A stretch of DNA of 64,000 nt. It comes from Paracyclopina nana (Eukaryota > Arthropoda > Copepoda > Cyclopoida > Cyclopettidae). The stretch lies in the NCBI GenBank assembly GCA_019096065.1, contig JAGUCH010000001.1, positions 17,050,001-17,114,000 of the forward strand, in the 5' to 3' direction. The notes under the pieces are model-generated. The model did no database searches, had not been told where the DNA came from, and saw only the letters and a list, made by a program, of their open reading frames with translations. Positions 1-46,281 of this stretch are shown in pieces (position 1 is the stretch's first letter; each line of letters starts with the position of its first letter). The translations under genes and the position numbers were made by a program.

Positions 1-28
1 CCAGAATACTAGTGAGTATTTTAAGGGG

Positions 29-922
29 ATGGCTGGAGAAGGAAAAGATGGTATGGAATTGCTATGGCAAGATATCTTTAACTACACGCAGTTTGTGCGT
101 AAAGAGGATCCATATTTCCTCATTCAGGAGATGATCCGGAAGCCTACTGAGTGCTTCACTGCCACACTTAAGGCAATTCTTCGACTGCGAATGAAGATAC
201 ATAGCACAACCATTGGAGATGGCGGAGATGCTCATGCAGTCTCTGAAGCCATCTCTGATGGTTTTGCACTTTTAGGACGTCATTGGCCTCAGAATTACCA
301 GTCATTAGTAAACAAATACAACGACTATCTGCTGAGAGCGAATATACCTGCTAGGAGTTTGCACGCCTACAATATCATGATGAACTTGATTGGCAGTGAC
401 CTAGGTACCTATGTGCCAAGGGACCTGGATAGGGCTCATAAAGAGGAGAGGCTGCCAATGGTACCCAATATGCGTGCCAAACCTAGAATTGCTATGGTTG
501 AAGCTACTGAAGAAGAGGTGTTAGACAGTGCTAGCACTATGTCGGCAGCCTCTGGCCGTAGTCAACGAAGTGCTAAAATAATAAATGAGCTACAAAGCGA
601 GTTGGCTCGAGCAAATTTTGAATTGAGTAGGCAAGCTGTTGAAGTAGCTATGATGAAAGCTGAATCACCATCCGAGAAAATAAATAGGCTGGGAAAAACT
701 TTTAACATAGATACATCTAAGTTGCCTGAAGGAAACCCTCTTCAGACTAATGGGTGCTTGTTCTGCAACCAAATGCATTACGCTACACAGTGTACGAATT
801 ACCCAAACACGAATTTGACCTCAATTAGAAACGATGGCACATTGTGCCCGTTGTGTAAAGGATTGCACCTTGAGTTTAGGGGAGAACAGTGTTGGAAGAC
901 ACGACCTGCTCGTAAACAATAA
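29..922 (+). CDS. gag: Gag-like protein of an LTR retrotransposon
   Basis: This 297-aa protein should be the structural nucleocapsid precursor of the retroelement that continues downstream. The C-terminal fifth carries two zinc-binding clusters: CLFCNQMHYATQC near residue 244 (C-x2-C-x4-H-x4-C) and a second C-x2-C-x4-H cluster near residue 273 (CPLCKGLH). Such paired knuckles are usual for retroelement Gag. The upstream part is helical and charged, as expected for a capsid domain, but I do not recognise a specific family there. The stop codon overlaps the next start as TAATG at 920-924, which suggests termination-reinitiation rather than a frameshift for Pol. The element's 5' LTR lies left of the window. 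Confidence is high for Gag and moderate for the start. Confidence 0.8.
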   Translation: MAGEGKDGMELLWQDIFNYTQFVRKEDPYFLIQEMIRKPTECFTATLKAILRLRMKIHSTTIGDGGDAHAVSEAISDGFALLGRHWPQNYQSLVNKYNDYLLRANIPARSLHAYNIMMNLIGSDLGTYVPRDLDRAHKEERLPMVPNMRAKPRIAMVEATEEEVLDSASTMSAASGRSQRSAKIINELQSELARANFELSRQAVEVAMMKAESPSEKINRLGKTFNIDTSKLPEGNPLQTNGCLFCNQMHYATQCTNYPNTNLTSIRNDGTLCPLCKGLHLEFRGEQCWKTRPARKQ

Positions 923-8600: not shown

Positions 8601-8923
8601 AAGAGAAAAGTAAAGCTGGTAAAGAACAAAAATACTTCCCTAATATTCCACGAATAGCTCCTTTAGATCGGGAGGACAAGGAATTCGCCCGTGTTAGGTT
8701 TACAAATACGAACCAAAGGCCAGACCAAAAAGAGAGAGAGTTACTAGAAGAGGTAGTTCCTAATTGGAAACTGAATAAAAACATGGCTGCAGTCCCTGAT
8801 TATATTCAGTTTCTTAAAGCGACTGGCATGGATCACCAAGATGATAGCAACATAAATGAAATGAAGCGGCTGCGTCTCACCTATGATGACCTATACAAGC
8901 TAGCTTTTAAGAAGTTTAAATAG
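5591..8923 (+). CDS. Pol part 2: integrase with a very long C-terminal extension
   Basis: This frame inserts the element's DNA copy into the genome. An N-terminal zinc-binding part has histidines at LLHNHLG and the pair CMHC near residue 57. The catalytic core has an aspartate in MIDLAKFDD near residue 87, a second in ADNGAQL near 149, and the glutamate in NAYAENAIR near 187. This matches the D,D-35-E pattern of retroviral-type integrases. After about residue 370 the protein continues for more than 700 residues rich in S, P, E, T and K, probably disordered. In this tail the motif NYRSLAGFQKY (about residue 877) recurs as DYRRLAGIRKY (about 992), an internal duplication. The listed start lies inside the overlap with the preceding frame, and the real product is probably a Pol fusion. 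The tail's function is unknown. Confidence 0.8.
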   Translation: MRNTKVYMSMPNCVYLMACIHLLHNHLGSKKTNTLFTQSMYSTYSARISRIIIGACMHCALYRQANTRFVGKGRFRIPTQPWELVMIDLAKFDDTLVKGSSAKDLLVFVDVYSKMIIAKPLLDAKYKQVANAMEEVISLFGVPKTLLADNGAQLTTNKALQRLVDRYKIKELCHYRTLSPYKHSNAYAENAIRIIRSALVLNSNSYNMRLCDVFKTSIYAINNRPLTYLAYTDDKGVKITPTPFSLFFDKMPFYHLGRDVFEILSESEDKIHKAEWRQRMRECDLEEQFHLEKMKATERPSFKPEIGSLVLVIKHPINKQRYKFMDDLFEVIDIGQHSTVTVKPYLYDGLTREVSLDHVKLYRFHELYRFLPEKLSNLLKRPYTPEEILRKKARNEVIEFLEGAAPESHDYSLRGHTKASSIVASQSSLISQSTSMDTEPSAIHQTYKRSGSILMQKAASLFKPSDILRIQEENKQLVQKQWEQYDRKKLEEKYLADNAGNNILHKEASDSLSDTGTDDFIEQAIALSANTGPNEAFYEDMLALSQRGPPTFAEMAQQERLYPNLPSVKPDHISTPDRSNVSEGTLAGVSPVKWAFRGQYRDQRVPDIPESPEKYHTPDQSMSATPNKDNDNIEEIVEKAASFIAPSKFDTDLESLSAGLESMQLALPTDPFGGNTHDDENESSDSDDTTTIYYTARKNLRRTPLTKSIKQNVQKAIDIVRRQLELSPRKRPPSPPIDNPMEGPSAPKPEIYGAEGGEPQVRYTIMKSPVRKPDLRPKNNELPNAGVPQTVPSTNVLEHPSAKVTPLGDLAMTEKEHLAHQATPGVAHPTVRQTGPVVPQPGTQKPPEAVVRAPYEPEKLSPLSFLPHNLRRRKNVNYRSLAGFQKYNKKNVPAGLPAIAQPDPSEALTRSEAALTTEQDTSPSQNVQQLLDTNLLVSSDQPSSSAATSFAEPKAPESSAAVQPTVEPEISEPTPIRILPRRQLRERKETVDYRRLAGIRKYGKEKSKAGKEQKYFPNIPRIAPLDREDKEFARVRFTNTNQRPDQKERELLEEVVPNWKLNKNMAAVPDYIQFLKATGMDHQDDSNINEMKRLRLTYDDLYKLAFKKFK

Positions 8924-14555: not shown

Positions 14556-14921
14556 CGCGAGTTGATTGGGATTGGAATATCTCTAGAAAAGTGACCAACT
14601 TGGACGAAGTCCGATGGGAGAATGATTAACATTAAGTGAAAGCTGAGAGTTGCAACTGCCTGTTGCACCCTCGCTACGTTTCACGACCTAGGAAGTCAAA
14701 AATGTCCGTGCAACCCGACGATGAGCGTGCGCGCACGCGCCCATCTTATAAGGAAGTGGTATAAGTCTACTTACCTTGTTCTTTTTTACCCAGACAAAAA
14801 ATGACCTTGGGTTTTTTTTTAAAGGGACAACCCACGCATTTAAATGCCCGAGAGTGTGGGGCATACCTGTAAAGATGCGTATAAAAAGGGCAGTTTACGG
14901 CCCTACAGCAACAGTCTGGAA
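14556..14921. promoter_or_regulatory. Divergent promoter region with two TATA boxes
   Basis: A TTATAAGAT box on the minus strand (14751-14743) faces the membrane-protein gene. On the plus strand TATAAAAAG (14880-14888) is followed about 33 nt later by an ACAGTC initiator-like site near 14911. The ATG of the 432-aa gene is only about 9 nt beyond that. A separate promoter for each gene is unusual if this block belongs to a retroelement. Confidence 0.55.
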
Positions 14922-16220
14922 ATGAGCGATAGCTTGAATAGCCTCGATAACCTAAGGATGTCTCTGATCACCGAATCCATGGAAGGAGAATCTGCATTGG
15001 TCTCCATGATGGAGACTGATAAGACTGGAGAGTTCAACGAGCATGAGGTTAGTGAGCTCCTAAAGGATGATGAGCCAGTTATGGATCGCAACATGCCTGC
15101 TGTCAATACTGAGAACCAAGCCCTAAATCAGACGACTAGACACCAGGACCAAGAGGAACCCCTCGAGGTCCCATTGGAAAGGGTATCCTCCAGTTTGGGG
15201 TACCCATTGCCATTTGAGGATTTGATCAGGCCTCCCCACATGGAGGGCCTACAGGCCTATGCGAGGGAGGCGAGCCGGACCAGAGCTACTATACAGCAGC
15301 ATTATGATGCAAGCCTGTTGAAGATAGCTACGAAAGAGGTCATGACTGTTGGAAAGGAGGTGCCTTTTGACCTAACGATCAGGATAAATGGAGAACCCTA
15401 TGAACGGACCGAGCCTCGTAGGCCATTGAAGGTGAAAAACTTTGACTGCATTGAATTGATTATCGAGCCAGTGAGTAAAGGAGGGGAGATTCCCGATTTT
15501 CTTGTTATATTTCCGATGCTAGACAATCTACCAGTCTACAACTTGCCTGACAAGATGGAATATGACGAGAATGTCCATAAGTTGGCCAATGTCAGGAGTT
15601 GGTCTGCCGTCCAGAGCCCAACAGCTGTTGGGTATTATGTGCATGGAATCCGTGGACAGGGTGGAGCTCAACTCCCTGTAGTAGTCTCCAAACATTATAC
15701 CAAGCGAGGCTGCATTCAGATCATGCCAACATTGGACTCATCATTTTGGGATCCGCGGATGTTCCATGATTTGACGTCGCCTTACGTGCAACTGTATGTG
15801 GGACCGCCGTCCTGCCTTAACAATGGCGTGGCTCAAGCACCACGAAAATTGGACGTGAAGATCGATATGACCGCACTCCTGCCTACCATGGTAGCCCAGT
15901 TTGTCGATCGAGCCATTGGGACATATCCGCAATGCGTGAGGTACACAGCCGGGGCCAGGCCCCAAAAACTAGCTGCGTTTGTGGAGAAGTCTTGGCAACA
16001 AAAACCAAGGCGAGGACCTAGACTGTACGCCGATGTAGCGCGCGGGCGCCCTTTTGGCGCAGGAACGAATGGACCAGACATTTTGCACGCTAAGCGCTCC
16101 AAAGTCGATAAGAATAAGGAGCGTGTGAACTATCTCCTCCAGGCTAAAATGGAGGAAATGACCCCCAGCGACATCAAGGTATTCACTGAGGCGATTAATG
16201 GATTTGTCGGGCAGTTCTAA
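14922..16220 (+). CDS. 432-residue protein of unknown family
   Basis: The frame is open from 14844, but the TATA box at 14880 places the likely start at the ATG at 14922. The product is uninterrupted. It has an acidic, disordered N-terminal region of about 100 residues, a middle part with beta-rich character (roughly residues 150-370) and a basic region near 370-410 that includes RGPRLYADVARGRPFG. It has no signal peptide or membrane span. It sits between a divergently transcribed membrane protein and an envelope-like gene, so a structural or nucleic-acid-binding viral role is conceivable but unproven. I do not recognise the family. Confidence 0.6.
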   Translation: MSDSLNSLDNLRMSLITESMEGESALVSMMETDKTGEFNEHEVSELLKDDEPVMDRNMPAVNTENQALNQTTRHQDQEEPLEVPLERVSSSLGYPLPFEDLIRPPHMEGLQAYAREASRTRATIQQHYDASLLKIATKEVMTVGKEVPFDLTIRINGEPYERTEPRRPLKVKNFDCIELIIEPVSKGGEIPDFLVIFPMLDNLPVYNLPDKMEYDENVHKLANVRSWSAVQSPTAVGYYVHGIRGQGGAQLPVVVSKHYTKRGCIQIMPTLDSSFWDPRMFHDLTSPYVQLYVGPPSCLNNGVAQAPRKLDVKIDMTALLPTMVAQFVDRAIGTYPQCVRYTAGARPQKLAAFVEKSWQQKPRRGPRLYADVARGRPFGAGTNGPDILHAKRSKVDKNKERVNYLLQAKMEEMTPSDIKVFTEAINGFVGQF

Positions 16221-16395
16221 AAAAATGAAATTACCCTTCAGAATCGAATTGTACATATTGATAAAATACTTGGTTGTGGGCCAATACAATTAACATTTTA
16301 ACAAACATGTCGACATGCTATGATAATAAAAAACCAATGGAAAAAAGCAAAGAATGTCTAGACATAGTGAGGTGGCGTGCCCATACTTGTCTGGG

Positions 16396-16404
16396 TTTAT
16401 AAGG
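16396..16404 (+). promoter_or_regulatory. TATA box before the envelope-like gene
   Basis: TTTATAAGG lies about 60 bases upstream of the ATG at 16460. An ATAGTTT initiator-like site lies about 30 bases downstream of the box. It resembles the box of the minus-strand membrane gene (TTATAAG). Confidence 0.45.
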
Positions 16405-16459
16405 AAAGTTAGCGGTCTTGGGGCCCAAATAGTTTCTGATCAGAGTTTGTGCTGGTAAG

Positions 16460-18344
16460 ATGTCGTTTGAATTGGCCTTCATACTCACCCTTTTGGGATC
16501 TGGCACTTGGGGCCTGTCTAACTACCCAAATACTCAGTTCGTACTGGATGAGGCACTTTGCCATTCCGGACATGCCCTAGTTCCAGTTAGAGTGGTCCAT
16601 CATCCTAGAATGGTGAAAAAGGCTATGGTGTTAGATACGAAGGATTACAGTGGCCTTTTGCAATCAACAATTGGCGTCCTGAATAATATTGACACCGTGG
16701 TAAAAGAAGTTAAGGACAAGGAGGACTTGGTCCATATTGGGAATATGTTGGCAGTTGGAGAAGAGAGTACCCCTAACACCATCGACAAAGCTTGTTCCAA
16801 ACGTCAAGGGTTTGTACCATTTGCCCCTAAAACTTATGAAGACATGGACGTTTTTCTAGAACTATTACGTTATACGGCAAAGGAAAGCCCTCTTGCCACT
16901 AAGGTAACTTTATGTGTAAAGTTTCGGATCGTCAATGAGGTACCTATGTCCTTGGATGGGAAAACCACATTTCCTCAAGTGGGGTATGAGAAAAAACCGG
17001 ATGATGAGATAATTGCAGGTTACCCGTGTATCACGGGTATTTCACTGTGGGACAAGGGCCGAGGACCATGACGTCAGTTAAAGCCCATGCACCACACAGT
17101 GATGGGAAGGCAACAATATGTGTTCAAAATGACTTTGTCATCACCCATAAGGACTTTGTCAAATCTGAATTGTCTGGGAGGAAAAGCTTCCTTGAAAAGG
17201 CCTACAACGCCGTGATGGCCCTAGCAGAATCAGGTAAATCGACAAAATTCACCGATGGCATGATAGCAAATACCACTCCACTGAGAGTACCACCGAAAGT
17301 TTCTTTGGCCTTTCGACTACTGAAAGGTTTTAGCAAGGTATTTTTGAAGTCTGGATTATTACCAAATGATCTGCAGCAAGTATTGTCATATGCTGACACA
17401 GTTGTGCAATTTGCCAGAAATTTTGGGCAGGCAGGCACACGGTTCAGCTTACCAACTCTGGCGCATAATAGTGACAGAAATGCGGCCACCATTACTAATG
17501 TTTATGAACCTTTGGCGAACACTGAGCAGAGTGGAGACTTTGTCACTCAGGGAATAGTTGGGTATAAAGAAATGGACCCTACCCTGAGGTCACATATCAT
17601 ATTGTGTCACGAAGCAAAAACGGATTCTTACTGCATGATAGGTATTTGACCCGCCGAAATGATCTAGTGTTTGTGTCTCGGGAAATACCCATCTATAGTG
17701 ATTGCTTCGTTCATGACCATAATTTAACCGTGTGTGAAAACAAGGACTTTGACTTGACAGAAGGAGTCCAGCACTGTGCTAAAGTACTTTTAGGGCTAGC
17801 TCTGGGTGACCCTTTTGACGCCTGTGAATTAGAGCCACTTAAAACTAACACGCTCACTGATGTGGGATGTGCTAATTATAAAGGGTTCTTAAATTTGGTC
17901 TCAAGTGCAATGATTAATAGGACTTGTTTAAATGACTTCAAGAACTCGGTGGTATTGGAACCAGGATCCTATCAGATCCTTAGCAATTGTAAGGTTTCCC
18001 TTGGAACTCAAAGTACTGGATACGAGGACTCTCCTTGGGAAAGTGATATGGTGAAGTTCTTTACAAAATTCCCTGAAGATGAACTTGGAGGTTTATTCAA
18101 TAATTGGGAAATAATCCTGACGGTGAGCCTATTGTCTGCAGCACTGGGATTCACGTGTATGGGCATATTGATTTGGAAAAGGCGGCGAGTATGCAGCCGA
18201 TGTTATGATGATGGAGGCTATGTGAGACCTAATACGTCCCGCCCACGGCTTCGCTACAATAGAGGAGATCGCAAGAAAGATGCTGACCAAAATCAGCGCC
18301 TTACTGTGCGAATGAGTGGCCTGGGAGGCGCGACGTTAGTATAA
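16460..18344 (+). pseudogene. Envelope-like glycoprotein gene in three frames
   Basis: Three consecutive frames (16460-17071, 17026-17649, 17604-18344) overlap end to end and together look like one type I glycoprotein. The first starts with a hydrophobic signal peptide (MSFELAFILTLLGSG). The last ends with a strong membrane span (about 18112-18170) followed by a basic tail (WKRRRVCSRC). Cysteines and NxT/NxS sites are frequent. The layout and the pattern YQILSNCKVSLG before the anchor recall the F-type envelopes of errantiviruses and baculoviruses, but this is a weak resemblance. Two single-base frame changes, near 17060 and 17640, break it, so no intact product is expected unless the assembly is wrong there. 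It has its own TATA box. Confidence 0.55.
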
Positions 18345-23984: not shown

Positions 23985-24407
23985 TTATCGTCTTCTCTTA
24001 TGTGAAACAATATTTGATTCATCCAAGTAGCTGAGATCGCGGTTCTTTCTTTTTCGTTGCTTCTCACAACTAGGCACCTGACTACTTTGAAGTTGAGGGC
24101 TGAAATCAGTTGTGTTATCTGGCAATGATTCTAGCCTTGTCCTTGGTTGAGAGGTAAGGGGACGAATTGATTGATAATGAGGGTTATAAAAGCTGGTTTC
24201 ACTATAGTACAGGAGGTAGAGGGGCTCATAACTTTCTGCCAGTTCACGAGTTGATGGTACTATTTCAATTTTTCCTGTTCTGTTATGGCCCTCTTCTTCA
24301 AAAACTGTATACAAGATCAACTTTCTGTTAAGAACTTCAGCAGATAGTTGAATGAACATTTGATCTAACAGACCAATCATTGGTTGATTCTTCACCAGCC
24401 CATTCAA
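23985..24407 (-). pseudogene. OTU-like cysteine protease fragment carried by the MULE
   Basis: The 140-residue fragment has the layout of the C-terminal half of OTU domains: a strand-rich region (LNRKLILYTVFEEEGH), then PLYLLYYS and NPHYQSIRP, where the His would be the catalytic histidine. A Lys/Arg-rich tail with a nuclear-localisation look (KQRKRKNRD) ends it. The N-terminal half with the catalytic cysteine is absent. OTU modules accompany transposases in some MULE families. The assignment is by pattern only. Confidence 0.45.
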
Positions 24408-24422
24408 TGCGCCCAGACATTG

Positions 24423-24498
24423 TCATGATTTCAACTGAGTTACAGATGTACTTGCGAAAGTCATGATTTCAACTGAGTTACAGATGTACTTGCGAAAG
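24423..24498. repeat. Perfect 38-bp tandem duplication
   Basis: The unit starting TCATGATTTCAACTGAGTTA occurs twice back to back (24423-24460 and 24461-24498). Because 38 is not a multiple of 3 it shifts the frame between the transposase fragment and the OTU-like fragment, and may have helped to inactivate the element. Confidence 0.9.
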
Positions 24499-24550
24499 TC
24501 CAAGTGGTTCATTGACATATTTTTCAGCATTGAATCATACTTCAGCTGAT

Positions 24551-25045
24551 CTAAGAGAGCATGAAGAAAGCAGTTTCCATCACCAGGGGTAGATCTATCT
24601 TGCGAGTTTTGAAGATCTTGGAATGTGCCGAACTATGCTTCACATTTGCATTGCCAGTTTTTGCACTGATTGCATCTGCAGCTGCAATTTTGAGCTCCTC
24701 TTGAAGCACTTGTGAGAGCAAATAAGGATTTGGATGCCTTGGAATAGCTTTGTTGCTGCCAATGCGATTATTGTAACCCTCCTGGTGATTGTTGGTGGAC
24801 ACTCCTTGATGCTTGAAAAAGTTCCATGTTGATGGACTATAGTGACCTGATATCCATGTTCTGTCCATGTATGTGAGAAACCTCTCACCAAATGACTTCT
24901 GGTCTTTTTCCAAGCTTCGAGCAATCCGCTTGAGCACATCCATCCCCTCAGTTAACCTGTCCAATGGAACATAAGCCAAGCCAATTGCAGAACGAATTAG
25001 AGATGTCAGCTTTTCATTATTAGGCTTAGAATAAGCAGTTTTCAT
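24551..25045 (-). pseudogene. C-terminal fragment of a MULE transposase
   Basis: The 164-residue fragment carries the region following the catalytic core in animal MULE transposases with FLYWCH-type relatives: an acidic helix, YMDRTWISGHYSPSTWNFF, then STNNHQEGYNNRIG and HPNPYLLSQVLQEE. The order W..YSPSTWN then TNN.EGYN is characteristic. The DDE core and any zinc finger are missing, so it cannot be active. It lies inside inverted ends with which it forms one element. Confidence 0.65.
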
Positions 25046-25384
25046 GCCTTATTTTAAAAATTGCGTTTTTGTGATTCGCATTTTAGAAGCTCTCATTTAT
25101 ATGATTCGCCTATAATTGATTCGCATTTTTGTGAATTCGCGTTTAGTCTGATATACCAAATTGCTGATGGCTTGGGCCAGCAACTTGATCAAGTAATATT
25201 TTTTTTTTGAAATTTCCCCTTTTTTTGGGAATTTTTTGTTCAGAATGCTTGGAAAATAGCATGGATGGCAGTGGAAATAATTTGAGTTGAGTGGGCAGAC
25301 AAGGTCAATTTTCAGTTTTGTTTCGTACATCATGGACTGGGTGCATGATTGTTATCGCTCTCTACAGACGAAACTAGCTTTAGG

Positions 25385-25469: not shown

Positions 25470-28400
25470 ATGGCACCCACCCCAATTTTCGTTGACTTGC
25501 CCCCATTTGACGAGAGATCTGCCACGATCTCGTACTACCCCTCCGCTGCCAACAAGGAGCGTAGCTTGGCCACCAGCCTTTTGGCTGACACTGACAAGGC
25601 CCTGGACGACTTTGCCAGTGGCAATGCGGACATCAAGACCTCTCTGAAGGAATTGCTGACCAAATTCTTCTGCAACAACCAGGTAACAACTGTTCAATTC
25701 TAGCTGAACTTGGTCGGAACATTTAAAAAATTCCACCAATTTATGGTGAACATATTATTTATGATGTACCGAGCCTTCAATTTTGAGGCATTCATTTAAG
25801 TCCAATTTTTACGATTGACGCACTTTGAACCGTTTTTACTCCGAAAATGTTGCACATTTAGTAGTAATTTTATCCGAAACTGCAATTCTCCGAACCTTTC
25901 TCTTAATTTTTCATTACGAAAGTTCAATAGGGGTCACTTTTGAAATCATCCAATTGACAGCTCTTTAGTTTTAGACTTTCGCTAGAATTTAGAATTTGTA
26001 ATTAGGCAATACTCCAGATTTTAGCTAGGAAAGCTGAAAAGAGGTCAATTTTGCTTTCAACGCGTTGACAGCTCTTTCCTTTTAGACTCTAAATCAAGTT
26101 TGATATGTATATGTACTTTACCAAGTAATAGGCAACATAAAACTCGTTTTTCTCCAGATCAAGGAGCTTTTGATGAGGATCAGCGAGTTGGCCGTCTTCT
26201 CCCATGAGATCCATGCTGAATTCGAGGACGAATTGCTGGTCTTGGGAGCCCTGAAGCAACTCAAGTACTTTTTCAACTTGCCAATTGGCCAGTTGTTTTT
26301 GGCATTGTCTGCACTCTACAAGCCCACTCCTCAAAGCAAGTGGTGGAGCGCTGTGAAGACCAACATCACAAGCTCACACTGGGCTGGCATGAAAGTCTGC
26401 ACTTTTCTCAAGGTATAATTAACATGAAGGACATTTTCTTGGCCTTGATCCGGCCTTTGCTGCATTTTGGCAGAAAAGTGCATCGATCCAGGTGTCAATT
26501 ACTACTTATTGCTATTTTCTCTTTCTTCAAGGAAAATGGATTGGAGGATTACGTCGACTTTGCTTACGAAATGGAGAAGAAGGATCCCCATGCAGTCTAC
26601 CCCACCAACATTTACCGCCAATGCGACGGATACACCGTGTCCACCAAGGACTGCTCCACCATTGAGAGCGTCATGAGCACCACCCTCACGACCACCATCA
26701 AAATCCGGCAAAAGGTCCTCGACGTGGACAACGACACCTTGGCCAGCATCTACAAGGTGCTGGGCAGGTGCATCTCCATCGTGGACGACAAGGTGCAGGG
26801 CATCTATGGCGAGGCCATCCAGGCCTACTTTGACCACCATGGCATCGAGTACTTGCCACTGGTGTACCAAGGCAACGAAGTGGACAAGGAGATTGGCAAC
26901 GTGGAGAAGATCCTTGTGGACCTGAAAAAGCATGGCATTTCCAGGAACGAGCCGGTCCTCATCGTGGGTGGAGGTGTCATTGCTGACATTGGCGGATTTG
27001 CCTGCGGATTGTACCATCGGAGCACTCCTTACGTGATGCTCTGCACCAGTATTGTGTCGGGTATGAGCTCTCATCAATTATTTTTTTGCTGTCATCAAAT
27101 GCCTTGTTTTCGCTTTGTAGGAATTGATGCTGGACCATCTCCCAGGACTTGCTGTGATGGATTTGGCTACAAGAACCTCTACGGAGCCTATCATCCTCCA
27201 ATCACTACCATTACTGACCGATACTTCTTCAAGTCCCTCCATGAGGGATGGCTGAGGCATGGTATTGCTGAAATCATCAAGATGAGTGTTACCAAAGATT
27301 ACGAGTTGTTCCAACTCCTGGAAAAGGTGCGTCATTTTAAGGTTCATAAAAACGTTTCTAATTTAATTCTCATAATAGGCTGGACCCAAGCTGATCTCAA
27401 GCAAATTTGGCACCACGACTCCTTGGAAGACTCTTCGTATGAGAAGCTCTGCGATTTGATCATTGGCAGGGCTCTGGATTCGTACGTCAAGTCGGAGTAT
27501 GGCAACCTCTGGGAGACTCACCAATGCAGGCCCCACGCCTATGGGCACACCTGGTCTCCAGGATACGAGCTGTCAGCTGGCATGCTCCATGGCCACGCTG
27601 TCGCCACTGGCATGGGCTTTGGCGCATTCCTCAGCCACGTGGAGGGCTGGATCAACGACGAGGAGTTCATCCGGATCATGAACCTCATCTCCTCCATGGA
27701 GTTGGCGCTCTGGCATCCAATCATGGATGACGTGGACATGATCTGGTCGTCCCAGGTGAAGATGGTGCAGAAGAGGAGGCCATTTGTGTGCTCCCATCCC
27801 CAGGGGAGGCATTGGCAAATGCGGATACTTGAACGACATGCCCTATGACCTGCTGAAGCAGAGGCTGTCGGAGTACAAGGCCATTTGCCAGGACTACCCT
27901 CGTCAAGGCCTGGGCGTGGACATGCACTGCGCTGACGTCGGCCTGGATGACCCTTCCATCACTGCCCAGGCTCACGTGAGGTCAGAGATGTCGGCCAAGA
28001 CCACCACCTACCAGTCCTGGATTGAGCAGACTCAAGTGGCTCGAAATGCAGACTGGAAGTTCAACGTGGCCTTCCAGCAAGCTAAAGATACTGAAAAGCC
28101 ACCTGCATTCACCCAGGTAAATAATAACCTAATTGATCTCCTTGATCACAGGCCCAAAATGTATATGCTCAAGATGATTTATAATGTAAGGTGACCCCTT
28201 ATCTCAGCTGTACTTCTACACTTCATCTGACTATGCTATGGAAGGGCTTCTGACGAAAAAAGTAGAGTTCTATGAATCGCGAGTTTCATGAAAAAGCTGT
28301 CAGATGATAGAAAACGCCATATTTAAGCAATTTTTGAAGAAGAAATTCCAAGTCTGGTAAAGCTGATTAACAGGCTCCTCCTACTCGAGCACTAAAAAAT

Positions 28401-29271
28401 TGGCGCTAAAATCTAAATTTGAATTTCCCGCTTTTTCTTTGAAGCGAGCAGCATAAGCGCCACCGCACAAATGATGAAAGAACTAAAATAAGTTTAGTGA
28501 ATTAATTTGCATACTTCCGTCTAGAATTGTCATTGTGGATGGCCCTGTATTATATGCTTACAATGTTTCAGGTGACGCTCTTCCATGATGGAGCAGAAGA
28601 GTATGCCACTGCCAATTCGACTTTGGTGTCCAAAGATGTCCAGGCCATAGCTGAGGAGACTGAAAAAAGCAAGCTCTTTGCACCTTGCATGGTTGGCAGC
28701 TTGGAGAGCCAATTCCTGAAGATGCAAATGCAAATCTCTGGCGCCAAGAAGGTGCTCGATGTGGGCACCTTCACTGGCATGTCAGCCCTGGCCATGGCGG
28801 AGGGCATCCCTGAGGATGGCACTGTCATCACTCTCGAGAACGATGAGAAAATTGCAGCTGTTGCCCAGCACTGCTTTGACAGCTCCTCCCAAGGGCACAA
28901 AATCAGACTGATCAAGGGCCATGCTGCTAAAGCCATGCAAAAGCTCCTCAAAGGTAAATTTGAAAACTGCTCTTCTTCTCATTAGCAATGACATAATTAA
29001 TTTTGCTGCAGAGGGAGAAAAGTTTGATGTCATCTTTTTGGATGCTGACAAGGACAACTATTTGGCCTACTACAAGCTGGCCTTGGATGGACTCTTGTCC
29101 AAGAATGGATTCATCATGGCAGACAACTCCATGTGTGCCCTCCTCTATGACGCCAATGACGACCGGTCGCAAAAGCTCCATGAGTTTAACCAGTTTGTCA
29201 AGAATGACCCAAGAGTGGAGCAAGTCATTCTCACAGTTCGCGAGGGCATCACCCTCATCAAACCTCTGTAA
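25470..29271 (+). CDS. DDGS-type cyclase fused to O-methyltransferase
   Basis: The predicted product converts sedoheptulose 7-phosphate to demethyl-4-deoxygadusol and methylates it to 4-deoxygadusol, the core of mycosporines. Exons: 25470-25682, 26158-26412, 26532-27060, 27121-27326, 27379-28116, 28572-28953, 29012-29271, about 860 residues. The first 160 residues are an unassigned helical extension. The cyclase follows with EPVLIVGGGVIADIGGFACG (NAD-binding), NLYGAYHPP, RHGIAEIIK and RPHAYGHTWSPGYE. The methyltransferase has VLDVGTFTGMSALAMA (AdoMet site), DVIFLDADKDNY and MADNS, typical of metal-dependent class I O-methyltransferases. The phase-0 join at 28116/28572 supports one polypeptide. 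Two single-base frame breaks lie in exon 5, near 27415 and 27774, though conserved residues continue on both sides. They are mutations or assembly errors. An alternative acceptor at 27402 avoids the first by losing 12 residues. Confidence 0.85.
28151..28547 (+). mobile_element. About 400-bp interspersed repeat, copy 1, in the fusion-gene intron
   Basis: This block matches, in reverse complement, the block at 35955-36358 at high identity over its whole length. For example CGTCTAGAATTGTCATxGTG and TCAAGATGAT are shared, as is the middle TCTGACAGCTTTTTCAT region (with small differences). The ends are short GGGCC-type sequences, and no coding frame exists. It fills most of the 455-bp intron between cyclase and methyltransferase exons. 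Without it that intron would be about 58 nt, like its neighbours. Confidence 0.85.
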
Positions 29272-31546: not shown

Positions 31547-34500
31547 ATGACGTTGATTAATATGGCAATTGGAGCCTTGGTATTGGCAATTAGCGAGGCT
31601 GGCCTTTACAAAAGAATGATTTTGCCTTCCCAATATTGGACTGTACGAGTTAAACAAGCTGTTCGTGCTGACTCACTAATTGAATGTGCATCGCGATGCC
31701 TTCTCGTGCAGGTTAAATCCGGTTAATTTCCTCCCTTTTGAAGTAAAACGATGACGCAACGAAAATAATGCAGTTTGGCTACTTGGTACTTTTGGCAGCT
31801 GAAAAGCACTTTTCACCCTGGAGCTTTGCATAAATTTCTAGCTATCAGAGCTACCAGTGGACACTTTAAAAAGTTATACTCCTTTCTGGCGGTTTTAAAC
31901 AATTTTTGGCTAGAAATAGGCAGCCATATCTGAAGCAAGTACACCCGTTTGAAACCACGTGGCCATTTGGCGGAATTTCCACCAACCACGTGCTCTTTCC
32001 ATGAAAATGTGTCCTTTTTTCCAGTGTGATTTCTACATCATGGACAAAAAAAGCCAAGATTGCCGCCTAGGAGACGCAAAGTATTTAGATGGAACCTCAA
32101 CTGGAGCAGATGTATCTGGATACATATCTATGGGTAATACAAAGCAAATGTACTTTGCAAATTACAGGATAATTTTATGCCACTTTAGACTCTCTAAGTG
32201 CTGACATTGAGGCAGCTTTTATGAGGCTACACGACATTTTCGGACACGAGTCGTGGCAGCCATTCATATACAAAACTGATGCCACTCTGGTTGATCGAAT
32301 TGAATGTGCATCGGCTTGCATTTTTTTCGAAGGGCCGCAATGTCAAATCTATGCCTTTGATGGCTCAGCCTGCTTTTTCGGCAATTTCGCCACGACCAAT
32401 GGGATCTTGTCGACTTCTGCACCAAGCATGGACATCTACACAAATAGAGGTGAGATTTTCGCCAGAAAAATTAATGTACCTGAGAATGCTGAAGGTTGGG
32501 CTAATTATACAATTCAGATGCTTTGGCTGCCAAAAGCTTGAGCAAGTTTGGCAACACAACGTATAATTTGCCGGGGTCAGTGTGGCGCAATTTTACACTG
32601 TGGACCACCGAGTTGACCACAAATGCATCAGCCATTGAGTGCTCCGGATTTTGCTTCTTCCAGGATCCAAATCCCAGTGAATGCACCTTCTCCCTGTACA
32701 CTGACAGCAAAGTGTGTGCTCTTGGCTCTTTCCAAGTGAACACAGCTGATGCATCTTCAACATCATTGTTTGATCCAGCTTCTTACTACCAAGCAAGAGT
32801 GACCGCAAGTAAGACTTGATAGCTTGATATCATCTATATACATTCTTTAGGTCTGACATTAAGCAAAGCAAATTGACATAAAAAATTATTTTTTTTGGCA
32901 CCAATCTGAGATATGTTTTCGTTTTCCTTTCTAACTTCTGGATACCGAATTTCAGTCATCTTTAGTAATTAAAAAAAAGAGATTCTTTTCTATTTTAAGG
33001 CTTATCTGTCTTATGACTATTTTAGAAAATATGAGCAAGTTTTAAGGCAATTACTAAGAGAGGTATGAGATTTCAATGCCGTTTGACTTTGCTTTATGTC
33101 AGCCCATCTGAAAACAGGAGAACAATCCATTTTCCCATACAATAGGATATATAGGATTTTAAACTTTTTGCTTCTTTGTGCCAGGTGAGGCAGATATCTT
33201 TGTAAGTTCGCTGTTTTCAACGTACGTCAGCAGCAGATGGAATCCTTTGGTTTTTGACGTCTTGGCAGTGAGCACCACTTACTCCAATGAATGTGGGCTC
33301 ATATGCTACGTTAGGGAAGAATGCGAATTTTACATACATTCGGCCACGTCATGCCACTTGGGGAATTTTTCAACCACCTCACCTGTCAGCACCACGTTAG
33401 TTGGAGCTTACACTTTGAGCATTTATTATGGTATAGTACATATATAGCTAGTTGCTGCTAAACACTCTACTATAAAGAGTGGCAGAACTTCTTTGCGAAA
33501 ACCATAGGAGCTTTTTCATTTAGCAACCTTCACTTAATAAACGTGAGCGAAAACCCGCTAATAAAAAACCAGTCAAATCAGTAGGAAAAAAGACAGATCT
33601 GCAAAAGCTCAATCTCATTTGCTAAAAAAGTGAAATTTATTACTTGTAAAACACTTCTTTGCTAAAAGTTATTTCAGGCTTTTTTTGCACTCTTTAACCA
33701 ACATTCTACTAGACCTTCTTATGCCCTGTTTATGTACTAAGAATGCCTTAAGGTATGGAAAAAATTGTCATATGGAAAAGTGAATCTGTTGCTGTTTGCC
33801 GCTCTACGAGTTCAGCTTGGGACCGAGCAGCGTTTTTAATGGCAATTTTTGCTATTTTGTCTCATGGTTTTCAGCATATTTCAAAACAAATTATTTTTTA
33901 TCACATTTCTATGATAAAAGATGAAATTTAATTTTTGATTTTGATCAAATGTACTAAAATGTGGAGCAGTTTTAATAGCCATAATTAGATTTGTTTACTT
34001 TCAAGTTGGCTTAAAGTCGATATGATTTTTTAGCATCAGCTGGCGCTTGATAAAAGACAATTTTTCTCCTTTCCTTGAGGTGTTTTTCATGCATTTTCCT
34101 AAGGAGTTTGTGGCGTACATGAACAGGACATTAGGTTCGTACTAGAAAATCGTCCATGTTTGAACTCAACTTCAGGCCAAAATTGCCTAAAAAAAATCGG
34201 TTCGCCATGAAAAAGCTCCAACCTTGATACGGCCCGTAATGTTCAGCTGTTGCTTCCTGTGTCCGCCATTCTTTGTACTAAAGTTTTTAGCTACTACCAT
34301 AATTCCTCCCCAAAATATGGCCTTCACTTTATTTATAGGGAGAATATCTGCTCTGCCAAGTGAATACAGCAAAGTCTTGGATTTGGTCGACTCAAATCTG
34401 CCCATGTCCAGGCTGATGGTCGCCTCATCCCTCGTTCCCTCGAATGTGGACGAATGTGGAGCCTTTTGCAGCATTGCAGCTCCGGATTGCATGCTGTTCT

Positions 34501-36958
34501 ATTTTGATGCAGACAGCTCCACGTGCTTTGCTGGAATGATGTCCTCAACTGCCACCAGCTCATTTTCAGGGGCCCCTGGCACAACTTCCCTCTTTTTTCA
34601 CAGCAGTAAGTGAAACATGATACATTTTTCTGTGCGGGAGCAAAGCAAGAAAAAAAATTGAGAAAAAGGAATAAGGAGCAACAACAGCTTAGCTTGCGAA
34701 AAAACTTGCATGCATAGTAGAAGAAGGTTTTGCAAAGTTTTTCACAACATGTTGCTGCTGCTGCTGCTGGCCTCAACTTTTTCCACTTCCAGATCGACTG
34801 GTAGCCTTTGTTGATTCCTTCTACACTGACACAAAATCATTTTCATCGTTCAAAATGGACGTGGCTATTTACGCGAGCAAGGAAAGCCAGCTGGGCTTTC
34901 AAAACGAGGATTGTGCTGCATACTGCTTCATTGACATCAGATGCACTGCCTATTACATCCTGGATACAAACACGTGCAATTTACTCGATTTCAACCTGAA
35001 CACTGGCAATGCTCAAACCTCCATTGACATCAGTGTCAAATGGAGCCAAAGTAATTTTTGCTTTTCATTTTTTTCAAAGCATGAAAACTACTTGAGTGAG
35101 CTTTTTAGCCACTTTGCTGGTTTGGAGGGATACAGCTTTCACGCCAACCACGAGCAGTGGCACCAAATGGACTCTTTACATATCACAGTCAGTGGCAGAG
35201 GCTGCCAATAGCTTGGATTGTGCAGTGTGGTGCAATTTTGAGCCCACCTGTGATTACTATGTCTTCACCTCTGGTTGCTACCTTGGAAGCTACGCAACGA
35301 CGACATCCATACTCTCGCCCTCTTCTACTGTGACTACCTACATCAAAAGACAAAGTATCCATACACAATTAAACATGGACAAATTTAATTCTGGCTGCTT
35401 TTTCCATTTTGGCATCCAGGCTCGAGTGGATCCATGGCGAAGAAATCACTCTTTGATTCCTATAACCAATTCGAGCCAACCACGTGGCCCATCTATGTGT
35501 ACACTTCTTACGTGCTGAAAAGTGGGCTGGACGACCAGTGTGCGGGGATTTGCCTGATTCACGCATCCGCCTGCCACTTTTACTACTTCAGCGGTGACCT
35601 CTGCTTCCTTGGAGATTTCAGCAGGATAGGAAACACCATTTTGGGCACCACATCTGGCCCCATTCAGATGCTTCCGAACAGCTACAGTATTTTTCCCAAA
35701 TTTGCATTATAATTCAAGGCCTCTTTCAATTTAAAATGCCCAATCTAATCTAGATTTTAGAAGCCAAGTCTCTGGCTTTGGAGGGAGCTCCACTTGCTCT
35801 GGATCTGGATTCAGGGAAGTCACTTCTTCGTCTTGGACAATTTCAATCGACCTGCAGTATGTCAACAGTGCAGCCTGCTATTGGTACATCTACAACCCTA
35901 ACCCAACTGGGTACTTTGAACTGACCATCAGTAATTACAATGTAAGTTGTACCAGGGCCATCCACTATGACAATTCTAGACGGAAGTATGCGAATTGATT
36001 CGCCAAACTTATTTTAGTTCTTTCATCATTTGTGCGGAGGCGCTTACGCTGCTCGCTTCAAAGAAAGAGCGGGAAATTCAAATTTAGATTTTAGCGCCAA
36101 TTTTTTAGTGCTCGAGTAGGAGGAGCCTGTTAATCAGCTCTACCAGACTTGGAATTTTTACTTCAAAAAAACGCTTAAATAAGGCGTTTTCTATCATCTG
36201 ACAGCTTTTTCACAAAACTCACGATTCATAGAACTCTACTTTTTTCGTCAGATGAACTTCCATAGCACAGCAAGATGAAGTGTAGAAGTACAGCTGTGAT
36301 AAGAGGTCACCTTACATTGTAGATCATCTTGAGTTGGAGCAAATGTGGGCCATTTTGAAGGAAAAAGCCCGTTTTCATATTCATCTTGCTATAGGCTTCA
36401 ATAATGTTAAGCAAGGATCTTTGGAGGCTTGCATCTCAACAACTAAAGAGCCGATCGCCACCAAACTTGGTAGGATTCGTCAGTAGACTCTCATTATTGC
36501 TCATGCCGAAATTCATCCGGATTGAAGGCCAATAAGCGGAGGCTAGTTTTTCCCGCTATAAACATTAATCAAGGCTGCATTGCTTAACATTTTAAGCGGC
36601 CTCCAGTTGGTTGCCTCAGACCAAATTTGTATTGCTGAAGTACCCTACCAAGTTTGGTTCCAATCGGCTCAGCAATTGCTGAGGTATTAGCTTCCAAAGA
36701 GCCTTGCTTAACTAATTTGAGAATGGACTACATGTCTAAAAGATTTATTTTCTCTCCACATAGTCTGAGTCATGTTGTGACAGTTTGAGTGTTTTCATGG
36801 GACCTTCAACAGCTTACCCGCTCAGATATATCTATTCAGGCAATTTGTTAACAACAACAAGGACCTGGACTGGAACGCCTTTAACCACTATTTTTTGGAG
36901 AACTGATGGCAGTGTTACCTACAGCAGTATGGTTGGCACTCTCAGATATAAAGTGTAA
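31547..36958 (+). CDS. Secreted protein with tandem PAN/apple-like modules and a CUB-like end
   Basis: Eleven predicted exons: 31547-31711, 32025-32133, 32189-32449, 32518-32808, 33185-33430, 34339-34605, 34793-35050, 35109-35354, 35420-35686, 35769-35941, 36764-36958. They give about 825 residues with all phases consistent. The N-terminus is a signal peptide (MTLINMAIGALVLAISEA). Eight modules follow, each with the pattern EC-x3-C, then C-x2-Y/F, then C-x-LG-x-F, resembling PAN/apple folds. Module 1 is split over exons 1-2, and modules 2-8 each occupy one exon flanked by phase-1 introns, ideal for exon duplication. The end (SSTCSGSGF to GTLRYKV) looks like a CUB domain. It is probably extracellular and adhesive or lectin-like. 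The last intron has been enlarged by two mobile elements. Confidence 0.7.
35955..36358 (-). mobile_element. About 400-bp interspersed repeat, copy 2, inverted
   Basis: Reverse-complement copy of the block at 28151-28547, again inside an intron (35942-36763). The two copies differ by scattered substitutions and short indels, so neither is very recent. No internal frame or long terminal repeat was found. It is probably a nonautonomous DNA element or another short interspersed family. Confidence 0.85.
36406..36712. mobile_element. Foldback MITE with about 75-bp inverted repeats
   Basis: GTTAAGCAAGGATCTTTGGA at 36406 pairs with the sequence ending CCTTGCTTAAC at 36712. Similarity continues through about 75 bp on each side, including CCAAACTTGGTAGG against its complement. 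The roughly 150-bp centre is also partly palindromic. It lies in the last intron of the Cys-module gene, 50 bp from the other mobile repeat. No coding capacity. Confidence 0.8.
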
Positions 36959-40988: not shown

Positions 40989-43900
40989 ATGGTAATTATA
41001 ATAGCACATTCTCACAAAAGACCGAAAGCTCACTCTTCTCCCCCACGCATAGGCCCAGCCACCACAAGATATAGCTGCTGCAGTGGCCCTTGAGGTCAAC
41101 CGCCAAATGAGAGCCAACGCTGCTGTTCAGCGTCGGCCTCAACAACTCCAACTGCTCCGCGAGACGGACAGCCGCTCCTTCCAGCAATGGCGGATGCACA
41201 TCGAGTCCCAATTCGAGGACTCGATAGAGCCTGAAGTCACCAAGAAGATGCTGATCAAGGCATCTATCGTCGGCCTTGCGTTGGAAATGATCAATTCCAT
41301 CGACAAGAAGTCGGGCGATAATACGTACACCTACAAGCACTACCTCGACGACCTTGAGAAGGCCTTTGTGGACGAGTCGGCCCAAGAGGCCGCCAGGGTG
41401 GCATACGACACCGCCGCGCAGGGTCCCCATGAATCCGTAATGACCTGGGCGGCACGCCTCAAGTTGCTCTACCTGAGGGCTTTCGCCAATGATGCACCGC
41501 GGTGCGCCAAGGTCGACAAGGATCCAGAGGTCATTAGGAAGTTCACTATCAATCTGCGGGACCCCCAGACACGCTGGCTGGTAATCGCCAGCAAATATGA
41601 TACGCTGACAGAGGCCGCTTCCAATGCATCCTCCAAGGAGTGCCTGGTAGGATTAGCCGGCGGCAAGGCCAACCCCCTGGGGCAAGGGGGCATCATGCAA
41701 ATCACCCAAGAGGGCAACCCAGACCAACCCGACGTCGCCAAGATCATCGCCGCTCTAGGTGACAAGGCTAACATGAGATGCTACGGCTGCGGCGGCTACG
41801 GCCATCTCAAGGCTCAATGCACCAACCAACGCCCAAACAGCCAACGAGGGCGAGGAGGATTCCGGGGCCGGGGACGTGGCGGCCGCGGGCGTGGCAATAA
41901 CAATCCATACCACGCCGCCCCGCCGGTCTCGCCCCAAGAATATAATAAATATCGCAACGCGGCCATCGCACATGTGGCCAGTGCCCCCGTGGACGCCTAC
42001 ACCTGGGAGGCGCCAAAAAAACGGAGCCAGCCGGTCCTAAAGGACCGGCCATCAATGGAACCATCCATCACCTCACCAAACACGTTCACATCTGACAAGG
42101 CCCGATCATTCCTCGCCCATATTTCCAACATTAATAAATCATACGTATCTGAAGTTCCAATACGCCTCAACAATGTCAAATCAAGAGCACTCATCGACAG
42201 CGGTAATACGTGGAGGTCGGTCATCTCCTCCACGCTTGCAACCAAGTTAGGGTTCACAAAAGCTCAACTTGCGCCCCTGATAGGAGAAACTGTCAACACA
42301 GCGGGCCAAAATCAATCTCTAGAAATACTCGGCGAGGTACCAAAGCCATTGATGCTTCACATTGGCACCTACCCGCAACCTTTCCTATTTCGACCAGCTG
42401 TCATAGCTAACCTCACCATGGACGTCAACCTGTCGGGGCCCTTCATGAAGGCCCACGACATCGACCAGCTACATAGTGCCAACTCGCTCCGCATTCGAGG
42501 ACGAATGATCAAGTTGGCAGGGGGGACACTTAATGAAAATGACAGTCGCGCAATCAACGTCCATGCCGTCTACATACGGGGTGAAACCACAGTGGGGCCA
42601 ATGTCTTGTTGCGCCATTCCCGCAAAAATCCCCACCTGGACCCGATCGCCGCACATCGATGGGATTGTTGAAGGATCAGGGGACTTCATGGAGGCCACTG
42701 AGCTGCACCCCTGGCAGCGAGCCCTCATCCGACCAGATGAAAAGGGCAACTGCGTTGTCGGGGTTATCAACACTACCGCAGAGCCTCTCATTATCCACAA
42801 CAACACCCGGTACGGGCAAGTTGAAGGCTTGAGGCGAGTACCCACCGTGGCCAAGCTGGCAGCTGGAAGCTACGTAGCCAAGCTCGAGGGGGCCCAAACC
42901 CGGCCGCAGGGCCAGTACACGGCCGAGATGGCCCAAATCTTCATTCAAGAATTCGACCTAGAAAACAACGACATCTTGAGCACCCCTCAGCTAAAGGCTC
43001 GCACCTTGGCCCTGCTGCTACAATACCAGGACACCTTCAGCCTCGATGGGTCCTCGGGCCAAACCGACTTGGCCGAGCACCGCATCGATATCATCCCGGG
43101 TACTCAGCCCATTAACATCCGCCGGCGGCCCATCAACCCGCACTTGCAGAAGTCGCTAGAAGAACAAGTTCAGAAATGGCTCCAGGAAGGCATCATCGTC
43201 CCTATTCAGTCGCCCTGGTGCGCGCCGCTGGTTCCGGTCACCAAGAAGAATGGGAAGACCCGGTGGTGCGTAGATTACCGCGCACTGAACAAGGTAACCA
43301 TCGTCGACACGCATCCCATTGGCGACATTCGGGATAACCTCAATCGGCTGGCGCACTCGCAAGTATTCTCTACCCTGGATACGACGGGAGCCTTTCACCA
43401 CGTTCCCGTGAGGGCCGAGGACATCCCGAAGACAGCATTCGCAGCCAATCACTCAACGTACGCCTTCGCCTACATGCCGTTCGGCCTCACCAACGCGCCC
43501 CGAACGTATGCGCGCCTCATCCAGCGGGTCTTGGAAGGGATCCCATACGACATTGCCTTGCCATACCTCGACGACGTGCTGATCCACAGCCGCGATGTAG
43601 AATCCCACTTCGGCCACCTGCAACGGGTACTGGACGCCCACCAACGGGCTGGCCTCAAACTGCAACCATCCAAATGCCACCTGTTCCGCCGTCGCATCAC
43701 GTACCTGGGGCACGTCATCACTCCTGAGGGCCTCTCTGTGGTCCCCGAGTACATCGACGTGGTCAAGAAGTGGCCCCTGCCACGGACCCGGCGGCAGCTA
43801 CGCATCTTCCTGGGAAAGTGCGGCTATTACCGGTCCTTCATCAAGGACTACCAGAAGGTCGCCAAGGCTTTGACGGACAAACTCAGCCGGGAAGAAGACG

Positions 43901-46281
43901 TTCCCGATACCGCCGAGTTCGAACCCCCGCTGGAATACGTTGCCGCTTTTGAGGAGCTCAAGAAGCGGCTGTGCATGGCGCCCATCCTGGCTTTCCCCGA
44001 CTTTGAGAGCCCGCAGCCATTCATCCTGGATACCGACTGGAGCGGGGACAACCAGTGCGTGGGGGCCGTCCTGTCGCAAGTACAAGGGGGAAAGGAGCGA
44101 GTCATCCTCTTTGGGGCCAAGAAGCTGACACGGAGCCAGGCTAACTACTCCGCCACCCAAGGGGAACTCGCTGCCGTCATCATCTGGCTGCGCAAGTGGC
44201 GGTATTACCTCCAATATCGGCCTTTCATCCTCCGCACGGACCATGCCGCTCTGCAATGGATTCGCACCATGGAGGAGCCCCGTAGCATGCTTGCCCGGTG
44301 GTTGGAGACCATCAGCCAGTTTGACTTCAAGGTCGTCCACCGGGCCGGAACCAAGCACGCCAACGCCGACGCCCTGAGTCGCGCCGAGCACGTCACCGAC
44401 ACCGAGGGCACGGACGTGTCCAATGAGAGCTGCGCGGGCGTCCAAGCGATGATAGCCTCGGCCGAGGCTGCCCTGGACATGGCCAACCCCGCCGAGTGGA
44501 TCCAGGGGCAAACGGAGGACGAGGATTTGCAACTGGTGCGGCGACTGATCAGCCAGCAGAGCCGACCGAGCCCTGAGCACAAAGAGGCCGCCTCCCATCG
44601 AGGCAAGATCCTGCTGGGCCTCTTTGACAGCCTCTACCTGGATGATCAAGGCCTCCTTCGGTACAAGAAGGAAGAAGGACAAGGCCGAGAGGCTCGCCAC
44701 CTGGTCGTGGTTCCTCGATCCTCGGAAGAGGGGCTAGTGAGGCACATTCACGAAACCATGGGCCATCAGGGCAGAGACACGACTGTTGACCGGGTCTCCC
44801 GCCGGTTCTACATGCCTAACGCCACCCGAGTTGCCGCGGAGGTCGTGGCTACCTGCCGCACCTGCCAGAAACATCAGCCGGAGACCGCGGACCAACGACA
44901 CTCACTACATTCTCACCGGGCGGGCTATCCCTGGCAAAGGGTCGCCATCGACTACGTGGGGCCCCTCAAGCCCCCTGTCGACGGACATCAGTACCTCTTC
45001 ACCGTACGCGACCTCTTCAGCCGATGGATCGAGGCTTTCCCATGCGCCTCGGCCAACGCTGACACCGCCGTGAGGTTCCTGACCTCAGAGATCATCCCGC
45101 GATATGGGCTAATGGAGAACCTCCATTCTGACCGGGGCACCCACTTCACCGCCGCCCTGTTCCAGCAAGTAGCCAAAGCACTAGGTGTCCGGCACTCCAC
45201 CACGCCGGCCTACAACCCTAAGTCGAACTGGGTTGAACGGGCCCACCGGGACCTCAACGGCCTCCTGGCCAAACTGGTCTGCGGGCGACCATCTCGTTGG
45301 AAGGAAGTACTGCCCGTCGCCCTGTTCATCATGCGCACCACCAAATGCCGCATGACCGGCTACGCCCCGTATGAACTGCTATTTGGGCGGCCTGCCACCT
45401 CGCAACTGGACCTTCTGTTTGGAGACCCCCAACCACTTCTGAGAGAGGCCTCTGAGGCCGGGCAAGTTGCCCAGGCCCTCAAGGCTCGAATCCAGGCAGC
45501 CCATGAATGGGCCCGAAAGAACATGGCCACATCGATCAACCGACAACGGATGGCCTACCACAAGGACAAAACGACGTATGTCCCGGGGCAACAGGTGTGG
45601 CTGTACACGCCCACCGTGGCCCGCCACATCTCCAAGAAGCTCCAAACCTTCTGGTCAGGCCCCTGGACCATACTTAGGAAGGTCAACGACGTGACCTTCG
45701 AGATCTTGCCTGACCCCTCATGGATTCGAAAGAAGTCCGAGGTCGTCTCGATCGACAGGCTCAAATTGTACCGGGCAACGGCGGAAGATGCCCACGATGG
45801 CAATGCCGGCAACCCGCCGCCAGCCAATGCAGATCTATCCATGCGAGGTGATGAGTTCGCTGAAGATGTCGCGCTCCCTTCCGATGATGAAGGCGACAGC
45901 GAGAACAACATCGAGCTCCCAACAACCGGCCACGAAACGGTATCAGCACCGTCACCTCGGGAAGCACGGTACCGCAAACGTAGGACCCAGGCGGAAATGC
46001 TGCAACAAGAAACAGCAGATTTCCTGGGGGCCGAAGTTGAAGTTGCCCATGGAGCATCATCTCCTGCAACCAGAACAAGATCACGCTCAGGCCAAAAATC
46101 AGATCAACCAGATCCAGAGCTACCTCCGCTGGCACCAATCAATATGCCGCCATACAGACCCCTGGTAGCACAGCCTACGGTCACGATGCCACAATTCAGG
46201 CCACTGCCTGAAATGAGCGATTCTGAAAATGATGATTTTGCTACACCAACAAATTCGAGCAGTGCTTCAAGCACAGAATAG
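40989..46281 (+). CDS. gag-pol: Gag-Pol polyprotein of the Gypsy element, spliced after its ATG
   Basis: The main frame opens after a TAG at 41050-41052 and has no early ATG. An ATG at 40989-40991 in strong context is followed at once by GTAATT, and AG ends at 41052, so a 61-nt intron (40992-41052) joins ATG in frame to GCC. The product has about 1743 residues. Gag comes first, with one CCHC knuckle (CYGCGGYGHLKAQC, near 244) and an RGG-rich stretch. The protease has IDSG near 382. RT has YLDD near 838. RNase H has DTDWS near 992. The integrase has an HHCC zinc part near 1230-1270, aspartates near 1300 and 1359 and a glutamate near 1395, and a GPWTI (GPF/Y-like) module. The acidic tail is about 150 residues. 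Gag and Pol share one frame, and no frame break was seen. Confidence 0.9.

Follow-up and report, generated by a model that had tools for sequence, protein, structure and literature searches.

Can an arthropod produce its own mycosporine-like amino acids (MAAs)? PMC7073964 gives the prevailing view as being that animals do not, notes MAA-related genes in anemones, and describes production in zooplankton as not demonstrated. Copepods without MAA food change their MAA levels and antibiotics weaken this effect (PMC7073964), and copepods on an MAA-free diet accumulate MAAs, an accumulation that chloramphenicol inhibits (PMC3083659); as far as these two sources go, the antibiotic effect points to bacteria as a source and against synthesis by the animal itself. 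The question is raised anew by a gene within the window analysed here (C1:17050001-17114000, a stretch of 64,000 nt from a genome of 91.95 Mb in 10 contigs), which had been read, from the letters alone, as an animal gene that fuses a DDGS-like cyclase to its O-methyltransferase.

The gene is real, and encodes a DDGS-like sugar-phosphate cyclase and a class-I O-methyltransferase behind a helical N-terminal part. It lies on the plus strand at window positions 25470-29271 and comprises 7 exons, with a coding sequence of 2583 nt in total, and 6 introns (475, 119, 60, 52, 455 and 58 nt), all six with GT...AG borders. The helical N-terminal part (~200 residues) is encoded by: exon 1 (25470..25682), with the start codon, an open frame, a GT donor and matching relatives; exon 2 (26158..26412), with GT-AG borders, in phase and recovered by tblastn with the relatives P0001 and P0002; and the start of exon 3 (26532..27060; tblastn, Pfam, GT-AG), which continues into the first half of the cyclase (PF01761). 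The cyclase extends through exon 4 (27121..27326), where the exon joint falls just before the IDAGPSPRTCCDG loop, and exon 5 (27379..28116), which is single copy in the genome and holds the remaining cyclase (PF24621; AYGHTWSP and HGHAV) and a linker. The O-methyltransferase occupies exon 6 (28572..28953; GT-AG), with VLDVGTFTGMSALAMA, and exon 7 (29012..29271), with DVIFLDADKDNY and the stop codon. The Pfam matches of the protein were DHQ_synthase (PF01761, E 1.9e-14), DHQS_C (PF24621, E 8.7e-14) and Methyltransf_3 (PF01596, E 9.5e-50), the last following the cyclase in the same gene, as had been predicted, and the quoted cyclase and O-methyltransferase motifs were all found within the gene. 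That the exons join in phase was borne out at the passage from the cyclase side to the O-methyltransferase (28116/28572), but not inside exon 5, where two frame breaks occur that are discussed below.

The surroundings of the gene were inspected as well. ORFs of retrotransposon type, coding for reverse transcriptase and integrase domains, are present at window positions 2-8920 and 41053-46278, and the ORFs immediately upstream of the fusion gene (23988-25048, minus strand), of which 24554-25048 is without a Pfam match, are possibly also of mobile-element origin. The long ORFs at 14844-18341 that were tested gave no Pfam match. At 32173-35515 there are several short exons with Cys that by eye resemble repeats of one extracellular domain. 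An ORF at 62154-63086 scored 25.1 bits against ANF_receptor, just under the cut-off of 25.4, and by eye resembles another at 52921-53475 that has no Pfam match; both are possibly glutamate-receptor-like.

A database search with the fusion protein (X at the breaks) gave 1202 matches at E <= 0.001 among 8000 scored, of which the best 120 were listed. The top three relatives show 71, 66 and 68% identity at 100, 96 and 87% coverage, and since the best of them matches the query over its full length at such identity, a chance resemblance is excluded. Named fusions were found in Heterosigma akashiwo, Amoebophrya, Chondrus crispus, Pyropia vietnamensis and Gracilariopsis chorda (868-912 aa, both domains in all). 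Over the cyclase, identity is 83% to P0001, 60-66% to these five and 54-61% to 16 unfused bacterial cyclases. The occurrence of the fusion in dinoflagellates, to which the original prediction had referred, is indeed reported, but the fusion is spread more widely, being found in red algae and further protists as well. According to PMC9298759, red algae and dinoflagellates have a possible fused DDG synthase/O-MT in common, and sea anemones and corals are predicted to have it too. The red-algal and dinoflagellate proteins have the same domain order and N-terminal part as the copepod fusion and a similar length, whereas the copepod gene differs by its arthropod host and its six introns. The architecture as such is already known; what is new, as far as the literature searched shows, is that a copepod has it alongside the remaining pathway genes. 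Among the titles, abstracts and passages that searches of the open-licence literature brought up, none described genes for MAA biosynthesis in copepods or any other arthropod.

The N-terminal part, which had been taken for an extra piece, does precede the cyclase but is no specific addition: it is present in 16/16 compared bacterial cyclases (E 6e-5 or better), and in 131/136 over all proteins compared. Because unfused bacterial cyclases have it too, it is ancestral to the cyclase class and not added by the animal. Such long cyclases, cyanobacterial and proteobacterial (e.g. that of Halomonas, L058), were recovered at 58 bacterial loci, with ORFs of 530-623 aa in the 20 measured, and share both the cyclase and the N-terminal part with the copepod fusion; unlike the latter, none of the 16 compared has an OMT in the same protein. 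The helical domain common to bacterial and eukaryotic long cyclases measures ~150-170 residues (L010 5479-6000 and its counterpart in relatives); it yielded a confident structure model and no significant PDB match.

What the cyclase makes is approached best from its class. It has the DHQS-type fold with both Pfam domains, and both its sequence and its fold lie closer to those of DDGS than to those of EEVS or DHQS, in agreement with the predicted identity. A grouping with the dehydroquinate synthases, raised as a possible objection, did not appear: the tree does not place the cyclase with DHQS and has very long branches to both DDGS and EEVS. We rejected a 3-dehydroquinate synthase (AroB) on the same tree and because the relative P0001 reaches 138 bits where the aroB model has its cut-off at 305. 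A vertebrate-type EEVS was rejected too, the fusion gene being the sole PF01761 match in the genome and its cyclase nearer to DDGS than to ValA. The vertebrate gadusol pathway (EEVS and MT-Ox) is likewise described as an animal pathway to a UV compound from sedoheptulose 7-phosphate that is thought to be horizontally acquired (PMC4426668), but it employs an EEVS-type cyclase and a separate methyltransferase-oxidoreductase, not a fusion as in the copepod.

At the level of the active site, GAYH, AYGHTWSP and HGHAV are as in DDGS. The aligned Glu in AEIIKM and the His residues of GHTW and of HGH, which we take to be the metal ligands of sugar-phosphate cyclases, are conserved. A 14-residue active-site fingerprint is ascribed to Kean et al. 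2014 in PMC4426668. The Anabaena DDGS Ava_3858 (PDB 5tpr) has the fold and many active-site stretches in common with the copepod cyclase, but is without the helical N-terminal part and the OMT and differs in the IDA loop. IDAGPSPRT is invariant in 66 aligned relatives (taken from the best 120 of 1202), and the loop PSPRTCCDG is unlike both known DDGS and known EEVS.

The genomic context of the bacterial relatives bears on the same point. Six loci were inspected by eye, after which the OMT and ligases were checked. In the proteobacterial loci (Halomonas L058, Haliea L048, Rhodospirillaceae L050) an OMT gene and an ATP-grasp gene adjoin the cyclase gene in 3/3, and a ligase gene does so in 2/3, while by eye no OMT, ATP-grasp or ligase gene was present in the flank examined of the cyanobacterial loci L002, L010 and L016, which counts against one uniform function of the long cyclases. 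In these three the cyclase is followed, where an OMT or ATP-grasp gene might be expected, by an ORF of 338-341 aa (L002 7427-8452, L010 7275-8291, L016 7344-8369). It could be argued from the lack of the usual neighbours at the cyanobacterial loci, from the deviating IDAGPSPRTCCDG loop and from the very long branches that part this cyclase class from DDGS and EEVS, that the enzyme forms another C7 cyclitol (e.g. a valiolone isomer) and that the methylated product is not 4-deoxygadusol. We consider this rather improbable in view of the closeness to DDGS over ValA in sequence and fold, the motifs shared with DDGS, the OMT and ATP-grasp neighbours at the three proteobacterial loci, and the presence of MysC-like and MysD-like genes in the same genome.

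The search for an ATP-grasp gene elsewhere in the genome, which had been proposed as a check, was positive. Genome-wide, the Halomonas ATP-grasp protein as query finds one copepod gene in three matching stretches (best E 8.3e-16), a MysC-like gene of four exons (loci L063/L064) on the minus strand at C1:17605829-17607724, 0.53 Mb from the fusion gene. Its protein has NF005315 as best NCBIfam model with 213 bits, compared with 478 for the Halomonas protein on the same model and a cut-off of 406. Its database relatives (66) include proteins of Nematostella (35%) and Montipora (36%), and in a tree of 57 of these 66, to which three bacterial proteins were added, its place is with the anthozoan rows and not the bacterial ones, its closest neighbours being seven further rows; this placement comes with a long-branch warning. 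The gene lies near the end of the contig (17.77 Mb) that also bears the fusion gene, and this co-occurrence may be left over from a joint acquisition or may be due to chance. A MysD-like ligase gene for the fourth step was found as well, on the plus strand at about C3:6120526-6122067 (first exon by eye). It is the best of the five rows obtained for PF07478 in the genome (84.6 bits, C3 ~6.12 Mb), the four others looking by eye like carboxylases and carbamoyl-phosphate synthase; the Haliea ligase encoded next to the cyclase finds this gene alone in the genome (E 1.8e-37), and the two proteins have a VGSP start in common. Together with the fusion (DDGS, O-MT), the MysC-like and the MysD-like gene thus complete a set in which each of the four steps leading to shinorine-type MAAs is represented. 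The copepod has one gene of each type known as MysC and MysD from cyanobacteria and anthozoans, but the genes are unclustered, on two contigs. They also differ from those of red algae, where ATP-grasp and D-Ala ligase are reported to be fused (PMC9298759), in being separate and scattered.

The animal nature of the gene was examined through the host. On the tree of MCCC1 of this genome (L066, C1 ~16.0 Mb; 41 rows, 40 of them picked from 120 relatives listed), the host is a copepod: the protein shares a 23-row clade (SH-aLRT 99) with Lepeophtheirus salmonis and Tigriopus californicus, and this clade stands apart from the included branchiopods, decapods, mantis shrimp and thrips. The stretch could still be DNA of a prey alga or another contaminant, given that the named relatives are algae and protists and that the third-position GC of the fusion (0.64-0.80) exceeds that of the host genes MCCC1 (0.55) and HSP70 (0.43-0.47). 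Contamination is nevertheless highly improbable in our judgement, because the fusion gene sits 17.08 Mb into a contig of 17,772,631 bases; its short GT-AG introns of 52-60 nt moreover resemble by eye the ~55-nt gaps in the HSP70 rows of the host, and the second pathway gene (MysC-like) is on the same contig.

The origin of the gene was addressed with a cyclase tree in which the query was joined by 31 proteins from the 120 listed and by 10 of the 58 bacterial loci (42 rows in all). The query belongs to an 8-row clade (100/99) that is nested in 23 eukaryotic fusion rows (100/97), with Heterosigma and Amoebophrya inside the latter clade and red algae outside, so that an ancestry shared with algal fusions is supported. 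In AU tests, for which the groups were defined after an earlier tree, grouping of the 8 rows with bacteria (p 0.0074) and with the red-algal group (p 0.0098) was rejected, which disfavours both a fusion assembled afresh from bacterial parts and a direct kinship with red algae. In the OMT tree the query joins P0001 (97), and the rest of the 8-row clade does not resolve. The nesting among eukaryotic fusions, algae included, suggests a transfer from an alga-like eukaryote, in line with the horizontal transfer that had been put forward. The seven other rows of the 8-row clade may be copepods too.

The most serious difficulty lies in exon 5. The relatives are matched in frame 0 up to ~27414; between 27417 and 27773 the match lies in another frame, and from 27775 onwards it is back in frame 0. 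On the simplest reading the first break (27414..27417, plus strand, seen from the frames and homologues) has 1 nt fewer than the relatives and the second (27773..27775, plus strand) 2 nt fewer, which restores the frame with a net change of -3 nt; at the second break P0001, P0002 and P0003 each produce tblastn segments that overlap and lie in two frames. Because of these breaks, translation of the assembled sequence would end early, 27457-27459 being the first stop in a straight reading. An alternative splice acceptor ending at 27401 was tried as a cure for the first break and keeps the frame, but by eye the conserved AGPKLISSKFGT stretch is lost; for the second break no plausible intron was seen by eye. 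Control genes were inspected for comparison: three HSP70 copies match 599/599 positions without a stop; 16 of the 29 HSP70 rows have no stop, and the 13 that do were taken, partly by eye, as read-through into ~55-nt introns; the junctions in the 28 rows of the CCT control were by eye taken likewise; and a 1.6-kb MCCC1 exon is in a single frame against two relatives. The controls being without breaks, those of exon 5 are not typical of this assembly.

The breaks may render this allele, or this assembly, non-coding. The copy could accordingly be a recent pseudogene or null allele, in a lineage that had the pathway but in which production of the fused enzyme has ceased in this individual or species: two breaks fall within about 360 nt with an early stop, a genome search found no second copy of exon 5, and the intact control genes speak for an assembly that is not error-ridden in general. 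Yet the coding sequence is otherwise open, the cyclase has kept its high identity to P0001, and the MysC-like and MysD-like genes are by eye free of frame breaks, which would be odd for a lost pathway. We therefore regard a lost gene as a real but less probable outcome, and infer that the breaks reflect either a mistake of the assembly or a minor allele.

The reading that we favour, with moderate confidence, is that the gene belongs to the nuclear genome of the copepod and encodes a bifunctional enzyme giving 4-deoxygadusol, with MysC-like and MysD-like genes acting downstream, and with a fusion that would have been taken ready-made from an alga-like eukaryote. If expressed, as we infer it to be, the cyclase domain would most likely convert sedoheptulose 7-phosphate to desmethyl-4-deoxygadusol with NAD+ and a metal ion, and the C-terminal domain would methylate this product to 4-deoxygadusol with S-adenosylmethionine. 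The separately encoded MysC-like ATP-grasp enzyme would then add glycine to give mycosporine-glycine, and the MysD-like ligase a second amino acid to give a compound of the shinorine or porphyra-334 type.

Several of the controls having been read by eye, we lean no more than slightly towards the broader view that some copepods make MAAs de novo with the alga-like-derived fusion and the MysC-/MysD-type enzymes, in which case MAAs found on MAA-free diets would come partly from the animals' own genes. Copepods may then make a sunscreen thought to come only from food or bacteria, and the four-step gene set in a copepod genome makes synthesis by the animal directly testable. An intact and active fusion gene would have a direct bearing on the long-standing question of where the MAAs of zooplankton come from, and an arthropod would join the animals with horizontally acquired genes for UV protection.
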